The position numbers were made by a program, and so were the translations under genes. Under the pieces are notes generated by a model, which saw only the letters and a list, made by a program, of their open reading frames with translations, was not told the DNA's origin and searched no databases. A stretch of 10,748 bases of DNA from Candidatus Rokuibacteriota bacterium (GTDB lineage Bacteria; Methylomirabilota; Methylomirabilia; Rokubacteriales; JACPHL01): the NCBI GenBank assembly GCA_016188625.1, contig JACPHL010000210.1:1-10748 (forward strand), given 5' to 3'. How positions within the stretch are numbered: position 1 is the first letter of the stretch; each line of letters opens with the position of its first letter. Positions 5,100 to 7,390 of this stretch are shown piece by piece.

Positions 5100-5158
5100 G
5101 GCAGGCCCTCAACCCCGTCACGGCGCCGGCGGCGGCCGGTGCCCCCGGGAGGTCCACG

Positions 5159-5458
5159 ATGGCTACCTACATCCTCCTCTCCACGCTCAGCGAGTCGGGT
5201 CGCCAGACCGTCAGGGAGCGGCCGGAGCGGATCAAGGAGGTGAACAAGGAGCTCCAGGGGATGGGGGTGAAGGTCATCGCCCAGTACGCCGTCCTCGGTC
5301 CCTACGACTTCGTCAACATCGTCGAGGCGAAGGATAACGAGACCATCGCCCGGGCCTCGGTGGAGCTGGGGGCGCGCGGCACGGTGTCCATCATGACCAT
5401 GGCGGCGAGTCCGCTTGAGGAGTTCCTCGCCGGCCTGAAGAAGGGCAAAAAGAAGTAG
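5159..5458 (+). CDS. GYD domain protein, second paralog
   Basis: A 99-residue GYD-family protein (PF08734) with QYAVLGPYDFV at residues 42-52 and the same ELGARGTV and MTMAA blocks as the paralog at 1861. The two proteins match at 59 of their first 90 residues, pointing to an old duplication rather than a recent copy. The tail is short and lysine-rich (KKGKKK), where the other has an arginine-rich tail. ATG 5159 has a strong GGGAGG Shine-Dalgarno site (5147-5152) 6 nt upstream. The open frame continues upstream, but the paralog alignment and this ribosome site fix the start. Its place at the end of the cluster suggests a shared, non-redundant role with the first copy, perhaps as a heterodimer. 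The biochemical function of the family is not established. Confidence 0.87.
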   Translation: MATYILLSTLSESGRQTVRERPERIKEVNKELQGMGVKVIAQYAVLGPYDFVNIVEAKDNETIARASVELGARGTVSIMTMAASPLEEFLAGLKKGKKK

Positions 5459-5507
5459 CCACCGAGCGTAGGGAGGGGGGGCGGAGAAGATAAGCCCACA
5501 ACGCGCG

Positions 5508-5537
5508 TTCACTTTTGGCGACAAGGAGTTGTAAAAT
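5508..5537 (+). promoter_or_regulatory. Sigma-70-like promoter of the toxin-antitoxin operon
   Basis: TTCACT (5508-5513, 4/6 match to TTGACA) and TAAAAT (5532-5537, 5/6 match to TATAAT) are 18 nt apart. The surrounding bases are much more AT-rich than the flanking operons. A start near 5544 would give a short leader with the GGAGGAG Shine-Dalgarno site just before ATG 5561. Such modules are usually autorepressed by the antitoxin-toxin complex near this position; no clear operator palindrome was seen. Confidence 0.5.
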
Positions 5538-5560
5538 TCGACTGCGAAGGAGGAGAGTCC

Positions 5561-5809
5561 ATGAAGCGAGACGAATTGTTACAACGGATTTCCATTGATC
5601 CAAACATCTGTTTCGGCAAGCCGTGCATCCGGGGACATCGTATCTGGGTGTCGCTGATCTTGGACTTTTTGGCCAGCGGCTGGACCTTCGAGCAGATCCG
5701 GGAAAACTACCCGGGAATCGAGGAAGCCGACATCCTGGCATGCATCGCTTATGGGGCTGAGATGTCCCGCGAGCGCTACGTCGAGCTGCCGGTGGCGAAC
5801 CAGCCGTGA
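5561..5809 (+). CDS. DUF433 family antitoxin
   Basis: An 82-residue protein matching the DUF433 pattern: an N-terminal ISIDPNICFGKPCIRG block (residues 10-25), then hydrophobic LILDFLASGWTFEQI and YPGIEEADILACIAYGAE. These are small helix-turn-helix-like proteins typically paired with a PIN-like toxin, binding both the toxin and the operon promoter. The gene has a strong GGAGGAG Shine-Dalgarno site close to ATG 5561. Its TGA (5807-5809) overlaps the GTG of the next gene in a GTGA tetranucleotide, so translation of the toxin is probably coupled to that of the antitoxin. Codon use is more AT-rich than in the flanking genes (for example consecutive TTG, TTA, CAA and ATT codons), consistent with horizontal acquisition of the pair. 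Confidence 0.87.
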   Translation: MKRDELLQRISIDPNICFGKPCIRGHRIWVSLILDFLASGWTFEQIRENYPGIEEADILACIAYGAEMSRERYVELPVANQP

Positions 5810-6315
5810 ACCTCAAGCTGGACGAGAATCTGGGCGAGCGCGGGGCGAGTCTGTTCCGGTCTGAAGGGCATGACGTGGCCACTGTGCCAGGTCAAGGCAT
5901 GTCGTCCGCCCGCGACCACGACCTGATCGCGGCCTGTCAGGCCGAGCGCCGGTGCCTGGTCACGCTCGATCTGGACTTCAGCAACCCGCTTGTCTTCCCA
6001 CCGCGGGATTACAGCGGTATCGCCGTCCTACGTTTCCCACGCAAGCCCACTGAGGAAGACCTCTTTGAGGTCTACCGTAAGCTCTGCGGAGAACGGGGAG
6101 AGGAGTTCGCTCTCGCGGTGGTGGCCCAGATGAAGCGGACTCGCCTCGTCCCCCTCTCGGAGACGATTGCGCTCGAAGCCGCGGACCTTAGCCTCAGGCA
6201 CTCCCTCTCGATGGCGGACGCCTTCATCCTGGCTACCGCTCGCCATGCCAGGTGTCCCCTCGTCACCAGTGACGCCCATTTTCGAGGATTGGATGGGGTG
6301 ACGTATATCGCGTGA
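5806..6315 (+). CDS. PIN-like toxin: DUF5615 N-terminus fused to VapC-type C-terminus
   Basis: A 169-residue protein that appears to be made from two toxin types. Residues 1 to about 86 follow the DUF5615 pattern usually partnered with DUF433: LDEN (5-8), GHDVATVPGQG, LVTLDLDF (51-58) and a GIAVLRFPRKPT block. From about residue 87 the pattern becomes that of the second half of a VapC PIN domain: EVYRKL with Glu88, ERGEEFALAVV, LVPLSE, ALEAADLSL, MADAFILATAR with Asp138 and LVTSDAHF with Asp156. PIN toxins are metal-dependent RNases using clustered acidic residues. The N-terminal Asp of VapC is missing, but LDEN could supply an equivalent. GTG 5806 overlaps the antitoxin stop by 4 nt. The frame is open throughout, so the fusion is not an obvious wreck; whether it is active is unknown. 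Confidence 0.82.
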   Translation: MNLKLDENLGERGASLFRSEGHDVATVPGQGMSSARDHDLIAACQAERRCLVTLDLDFSNPLVFPPRDYSGIAVLRFPRKPTEEDLFEVYRKLCGERGEEFALAVVAQMKRTRLVPLSETIALEAADLSLRHSLSMADAFILATARHARCPLVTSDAHFRGLDGVTYIA

Positions 6316-6369
6316 GGGTCCAGCGCTCGGTGCGCCGGATCGTCCTGCACCTGCCCGCGACGTTCCCCT

Positions 6370-6388
6370 GGCTGCCCACGTGGCAGCC
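6370..6388. repeat. Inverted repeat downstream of the toxin gene
   Basis: GGCTGCC (6370-6376), CACGT, GGCAGCC (6382-6388) form a perfect 7-bp stem; the centre also contains the palindrome CACGTG. A C-run, not a T-run, follows on the + strand, so it is not a canonical intrinsic terminator. It may mark the end of the toxin-antitoxin transcript or act as a protein-binding site. The rest of 6316-6445 shows nothing recognisable. Confidence 0.4.
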
Positions 6389-6445
6389 CCCCCCATAGGC
6401 GCTTTGTGTAACGTCGTTTTAAGAAAGGCCTCTATTGAAAGATCC

Positions 6446-6475
6446 TTGACGCTACGGGGCGCGGTGTGCTAGATG
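6446..6475 (+). promoter_or_regulatory. Promoter upstream of the GarR-like pseudogene
   Basis: TTGACG (6446-6451, 5/6 match to TTGACA) lies 18 nt from TAGATG (6470-6475), a weak -10 that reads TGCTAGAT with its upstream TG, similar to the predicted -10 elements at 1824 and 8695. Transcription would begin near 6482, about 29 nt before ATG 6511. This also makes the in-frame GTG at 6466 unlikely as a start codon. Confidence 0.5.
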
Positions 6476-6510: not shown

Positions 6511-7390
6511 ATGCCAAAGACCATCGGCTTCATCGGACTCGGCATCATGGGCCGGCCCATGGCCAAGAACCTCCTCAAGGCCGGCTACTCCCTGGTGGTC
6601 CACAACCGGAGCCAGGCCCCGGTTCAGGAGCTGACCGGCCTGGGGGCCAAGGCCGCCCGCCCGCCGCGGGAGGTCGCGGCCGGCTCTGAGGTGATCATCA
6701 CGATCCTCCCAAACTCGCCGGATGTTGAGCAGGTCGCCCTGGGGCCGGACGGGCTGATCGAGGGGGTCCGGGGCGGCCAGCTCTGTGCGGACATGTCCAC
6801 CATCTCCCCGATCGTCTCCCAGAAGGTGGGGGCGGAGCTGGCGAAGAAGGGGGTGCGGATGCTCGACGCCCCGGTCTCGGGCGGGGAGGCAGGGGCGATC
6901 CAGGGGACCCTGTCGATCATGGTCGGGGGGGAGCGGGCCGCCTTCGACGAGGCCCTCCCCATCTTCCAGGCCATGGGGAAGACCATCACCTACCTCGGCC
7001 CCCTCGGCTCCGGCGGGTTCACCAAGCTGGCCAACCAGATCATCGTGGCGCTGAACCTCACGGCGATCGCCGAGGCCCTGGTCCTGGCCGCCAAGGCGGG
7101 GCTGGACATCGAGCTGACCATCAAGGCCCTGGAGCCGGGCCCTGGAGATGAAGACCCCGAACTACCTCGCCCACGAGTTCAAGCCCGGCTTCAAGATCGA
7201 CCTCCACTACAAGGACCTCGGACTGATCATGGAGGCGGCCCGGGCGCTCGGCGTGCCGTTGCCCACCACCGCCGTGGTGCAGGAGCTCTTCAGCGCGCTC
7301 CGGGTCCGGGGCCGGGGAGGGCTCGATCACTCGGGCGTCGTCACGCTCCTCGAGGACCTGGCCGGGGTGGAGGTGAAGAAGCGCGGCTGA
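6511..7390 (+). pseudogene. Frameshifted 2-hydroxy-3-oxopropionate reductase / beta-hydroxyacid dehydrogenase
   Basis: The intact family (GarR, GlxR, HIBADH) reduces tartronate semialdehyde or oxidises beta-hydroxyacids with NAD(P). Residues 1-208 read normally: Rossmann GLGIMG (9-14), LPNSP (66-70), DAPVSGG with Ser123, and Lys172 and Asn175 in TKLANQ. After codon 208 (GAG 7132-7134) this frame departs from the family, while a second frame continues in register as WSRALEMK (from 7130) through FKPGFKIDLH to TGA 7388-7390. Compared with E. coli GarR, four glycine-rich residues plus the repeated bases are missing. Deleting one of two CTGGAG copies removes 17 nt, and restoring them gives 298 codons, fitting a 294-residue family with four extra terminal residues. 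The 5' part alone would lack the C-terminal dimer/substrate helices; ATG 7148 could restart an 80-residue remnant. A sequencing or assembly error is the main alternative. Confidence 0.8.

Follow-up and report, generated by a model that had tools for sequence, protein, structure and literature searches.

Among the described systems closest to the locus examined here is VapBC10 of Synechocystis, a tested COG2442-PIN toxin-antitoxin system in which VapC10 halts the growth of E. coli and is neutralised by its partner, a member of the DUF433 family (PMC3834315). The pairing of COG2442 with PIN domains had been predicted earlier (PMC2701414); the DUF433-COG4634 combination has been named as a candidate toxin-antitoxin pair, situated on a mobile element that also bears a VapC (PMC4226512); and genes of the DUF433 and COG4634 families have been studied in Rhizobium for their effects on conjugation or plasmid transfer (PMC4294206). 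Pairs of DUF433 and PIN-domain genes can therefore be toxin-antitoxin systems. The name DUF5615 is not used in the literature that we found on DUF5615 or DUF433; COG4634 is the group that we take to correspond to it.

The window considered here, a stretch of 10,748 bp that makes up one whole contig of a draft genome bin of a Candidatus Rokuibacteriota bacterium (84% complete, 344 contigs), contains a DUF433 gene followed by a gene whose predicted product resembles two families of toxins predicted to cleave RNA. The locus is like the DUF433-DUF5615 (COG2442-COG4634) pairs in its operon order, in the overlap of the two genes, and in the N-terminal 83 residues of the second product with their conserved acids (the closest DUF5615 protein, L062, has 60% identity to it over the first ~93 residues), but it differs from them in that the C-terminal hairpin (which reads LWIVEPGRIRI in relatives) and the remainder of the last helix have given way to a VapC tail. 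Over residues 86-168, which include E88, D138 and D156, the product is like the VapC proteins (PF01850), such as the one annotated on Leptospira plasmids, and its tail has about 40-49% identity to complete members of that family; however, it is without their first ~38 residues, and hence without strand 1, the first catalytic Asp and the VDSS motif, and the VapB-type antitoxin gene that lies upstream of VapC is likewise missing. A search of the literature on chimeric VapC toxins returned nothing relevant.

Results

The hybrid gene occupies positions 5806 to 6315 of the forward strand, where a GTG start at 5806 and a stop codon ending at 6315 delimit a single open frame of 169 amino acids. The initial annotation had interpreted this frame as a chimera of DUF5615 and VapC, and the interpretation is upheld, in that each part matches its own family when searched separately. 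Residues 1-85 (5806 to 6060, forward strand), with D6, E7, D37, D55 and F58, form the DUF5615 part (PF18480), and residues 86-169 (6061 to 6312, same strand), with E88, D138 and D156, form the VapC PIN part (PF01850). All the motifs that had been read from the frame are present (LDEN at residues 5-8, VTLDLDF at 52-58, FEVYRKL at 87-93, ERGEE at 96-100, MADAFILATAR at 136-146 and VTSDAHF at 153-159), and the numbering given for the three VapC acids is correct.

In Pfam, the DUF5615 match extends over residues 1-83 and profile positions 1-83 of 110 (70.8 bits, E = 1.1e-19; curated cut-off 23.8 bits), and the PIN match over residues 87-163 and profile positions 39-118 of 120 (51.7 bits, E = 1.7e-13), the latter exceeding its curated cut-off of 23.6 bits by virtue of the C-terminal two-thirds of the domain only. 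When front and back were scanned alone, the families were unchanged (59.5 bits for DUF5615 and 49.2 bits for PIN). Over residues 87-169 the DUF5615 profile scores 14.3 bits, which is below its cut-off and favours a chimera over a DUF5615 protein that spans the entire frame. On these sequence scores, chance similarity is excluded for the DUF5615 part and the VapC part alike.

Neither part is visibly decayed, because nearly all near-invariant positions, and every conserved acid of the catalytic motifs, are retained: 16 of 17 such positions in the DUF5615 part, among them D6, E7, D37, D55 and F58, and 20 of 25 in the VapC part, where the three acids that the initial annotation had counted as kept are indeed intact. 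D6 is a contribution of DUF5615, and positions 1-38 of the PF01850 profile are without a match in the hybrid. No remnant of the DUF5615 hairpin was detected in any frame downstream of the hybrid.

The proposal that recombination had swapped the back half of the toxin is not supported. Residues 1-86 represent about three quarters of DUF5615, not half, and include every one of its conserved acidic residues. The DUF5615 core appears to be PIN-like by itself, as indicated by a match of residues 1-59 to PIN_10 that lies above the cut-off of that family, and by a profile-profile comparison in which positions 35-78 of DUF5615 align with positions 91-126 of VapC (E = 0.001, with a probability of only 21%). 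The VapC profile matches the front part at residues 41-59, very weakly, and a second, weak match to the DUF5615 profile occurs in the tail at residues 135-159. The front part seems, from such alignments, to hold its own equivalents of Asp138 and Asp156 in the form of Asp37 and Asp55, so that the motifs of the back half would be present twice in the hybrid; the join would have added a second, incomplete back half and removed the C-terminal helix and hairpin of DUF5615. Because the two families are joined out of homologous and structural register, ordinary homologous recombination is unlikely, and an illegitimate event is the likelier origin of the join.

The junction was placed by a breakpoint scan with profiles built from 17 DUF5615 relatives and 23 VapC relatives. 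In ungapped comparisons, the DUF5615 profile scores 123 bits over residues 1-94 and the VapC profile 96.5 bits over residues 86-168, and the best switch point falls after residue 84, 85 or 86, all within 1 bit of one another. The corresponding interval, residues 84-86 (6055 to 6063, forward strand), is close to the recombination site originally estimated at 6058-6072. The overlap between the two profile matches reflects a helix that is much alike in the two parents at this place (QDFIEFSKNL in the DUF5615 protein L062 and ITLYEVFKKI in the VapC protein L047, as compared with EDLFEVYRKL in the hybrid), and this helix begins at residue 83 in the predicted models of both the hybrid and an intact DUF5615 relative. 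A search for repeats at the junction found none.

An AlphaFold2 model of the hybrid, of no more than moderate confidence (pLDDT 78, pTM 0.49) and computed from an alignment of 12 sequences, displays the elements and strand order of DUF5615 in residues 1-77, followed by helices and by two short strands at the end; the stretch 112-116, which lies at the place of a VapC strand, is uncertain. It had been asked whether Asp6/Glu7 and Glu88/Asp138/Asp156 form a single acidic pocket, for which the model offers no support: residues 1-77 align with the VapC chains 3zvk, 6a7v and 4chg (and with 5sv2 to residue 79) at Z of about 5, and residues 81-169 align separately with the VapC chains 7by2, 7by3 and 2fe1 at Z of about 5-7. 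None of the VapC alignment rows uses strand 1 together with residues 87-169, and Z-scores of 5-7, as obtained for the hybrid, are in the range of chance. A Foldseek search with the whole model gave nothing at E ≤ 0.001, the best matches being the VapC chains 7by3 and 7by2, and a sequence search found no DUF5615 relatives among solved structures. Because a control model of a DUF5615 relative produced just generic Rossmann-like matches, we do not take the structural scores as proof. The separate alignments speak weakly against a shared pocket, and the model is itself too weak to exclude one.

Directly ahead of the hybrid, as the initial annotation had presumed, lies the usual partner of DUF5615: a DUF433 gene (5561 to 5809, forward strand; PF04255, E = 3.4e-26), whose 82-amino-acid product is a probable antitoxin and matches the solved DUF433 structure 2GA1. 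The upstream gene is thus of the DUF433 family and not a VapB-type antitoxin. The end of this gene and the beginning of the hybrid share 4 bp, an arrangement normal for a DUF433-DUF5615 operon, and DUF433 is situated 5' of DUF5615 in all relatives examined for gene order. Ahead of the DUF433 gene, a consensus scan found one possible, weak sigma-70-like promoter (5508 to 5537, forward strand), with 0.3 expected.

Third-position GC content is 0.756 in the DUF433 gene, 0.767 in the front part of the hybrid and 0.747 in the back part, and this agreement is as expected if all three had one common history. For the segment from 5460 to 6465, which holds the DUF433 gene and the hybrid, the value is ~0.75 compared with 0.95-0.98 in three neighbouring genes, suggesting acquired DNA. 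The next gene downstream (6511 to 7387), which is 3-hydroxyisobutyrate dehydrogenase-like, is frameshifted near 7121-7150; positions 1-47 of its NAD_binding_11 domain are in one frame and positions 48-122 in another, reflecting either a sequence error or a pseudogene.

The hybrid has no full-length homologs in sets of 148 and 388 relatives' genomes, in which each match covered one half, and the same join was found neither in 95 genomes of the phylum, which belong to other families, nor on plasmids, where the matches were again to one half each. It was also absent from a scan of 84,980 GTDB species genomes with exact short peptides of the hybrid, a procedure that reaches close relatives only and whose matches likewise took in a single half; viral contigs, for which the scan has the same reach, and phages yielded no match. 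Homologs sharing the junction, for which the initial annotation had proposed to look, did not emerge, and the hybrid is known from one sequence. PADLOC gave no match. Neither half has a close second copy within the same genome, where the four further PIN genes and the single Mut7-C-like gene are distinct from both.

DUF5615 genes as a rule retain the end that the hybrid has lost: in 290 relatives, most of the matches listed extend at least to position 100 of the 110 in the profile. Of 20 DUF5615 genes selected for a short match or a long frame, 19 are without a VapC tail, and the remaining one (L079) was not located by tblastn. The C-terminal end of one DUF5615 gene (L078, in genome G062) looks frameshifted, so that the hybrid may not be the only case in which DUF5615 has lost its end. 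In another genome (L017:1480-1761), a lone VapC back half stands behind an unrelated deacetylase-like gene, cut near the same point as in the hybrid, and the Asp of its ADS motif is replaced by Asn.

No DUF5615 gene in 40 regions of 3-7 kb from other genomes was found to neighbour a VapC gene of the subfamily to which the tail belongs. Deletion between neighbouring toxin genes, considered as the origin of the hybrid, is accordingly unproven, although some of the 40 regions contain tandem DUF5615 genes. Two or more DUF5615 genes occur close together in several genomes (L032, L038, L095, L103 and L107), with DUF433 present where checked.

Discussion

The explanation that we prefer, with a confidence that is evenly balanced, is that the hybrid represents a genuine fusion, rare and probably of recent date, subject to control by DUF433 through its front part and provided with a VapC tail that would be catalytically incomplete. 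The sequence shows ~83 C-terminal residues of a VapC protein occupying, in one frame, the place of the C-terminal helix and hairpin of a DUF5615 protein; under this explanation, they would have come there through an illegitimate, out-of-register join. The DUF5615 core would fold as a compact PIN-like domain, would be translated together with DUF433 and bound by it, and any RNA cleavage would use Asp6, Asp37 and Asp55 of the front part, with the VapC tail serving as an appendage at most. Because the tail is without the first strand and the first Asp, it would be catalytically incomplete; and because it is incomplete, the hybrid, as judged from its sequence, is more likely to be a weakened or defused toxin than one of new specificity. 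The catalytic residues of the tail are nevertheless intact, as is also expected of an active hybrid, and this counts against the explanation that we prefer, as do the occurrence of the join in one sequence from a draft genome bin, the weakness of the model and of its structural scores, and the lack of a DUF5615-VapC neighbour pair in the 40 regions.

Alternatively, a deletion might have collapsed two toxin genes into a non-functional remnant that still reads through but is inactive and will decay. Such a remnant would fit with a join that was seen just once, with the normal retention of the C-terminal hairpin by DUF5615 (most listed matches extending to profile position 100 or beyond), with the existence of loose VapC back halves as debris, of which the altered ADS motif in L017 is an example, and with the presence of a frameshifted gene nearby in the window. 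Against it, all 169 codons are open and nearly all conserved residues are kept in both halves, unlike in L017, and we regard a remnant as unlikely but deserving of serious weight.

An assembly artefact, in which a VapC gene from elsewhere or from a different organism was misjoined to the DUF5615 gene, is, in our estimation, improbable. In its favour, the source is a draft, metagenome-like bin, the join has been seen in a single case, and the frameshift near 7121-7150 means either that the contig contains an error or that the downstream gene is broken. However, the join is in frame, falls at matching helix starts and lies in the middle of the contig, and third-position GC is equal on its two sides. 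Moreover, the nearest known parents have only scattered residues in common at the join, so that a shared exact k-mer, at which an assembly could have gone astray, is unlikely.

No less doubtful is an active toxin maintained by selection, in which the VapC tail would complete a composite pocket or re-target the DUF5615 nuclease; if this were the case, toxins could trade parts that determine specificity across PIN subfamilies while the antitoxin is kept. In its most specific form, a functional hybrid nuclease of the PIN type whose single pocket is composed of Asp6/Glu7 and Glu88/Asp138/Asp156 and which has a new RNA specificity under DUF433 control, this is very improbable, since, although all the named residues are present and conserved and the front part supplies exactly the strand and the Asp that are missing from the tail, the model and the structure alignments yield two separate PIN-like pieces, and the tail would have to displace the Asp37 and Asp55 that the front part has beside its Asp6.

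If it is a toxin that has kept the part facing its antitoxin and acquired half of another toxin, the hybrid would permit a direct test of which part governs antitoxin recognition and which governs target choice in PIN toxins, and it would draw attention to DUF5615, a family that has received little study. Being one case that awaits confirmation, it carries modest weight. Elsewhere in the window, two genes with a GYD domain (PF08734), at 1834-2184 and 5156-5458, are 3 kb apart and are likely to be paralogs.
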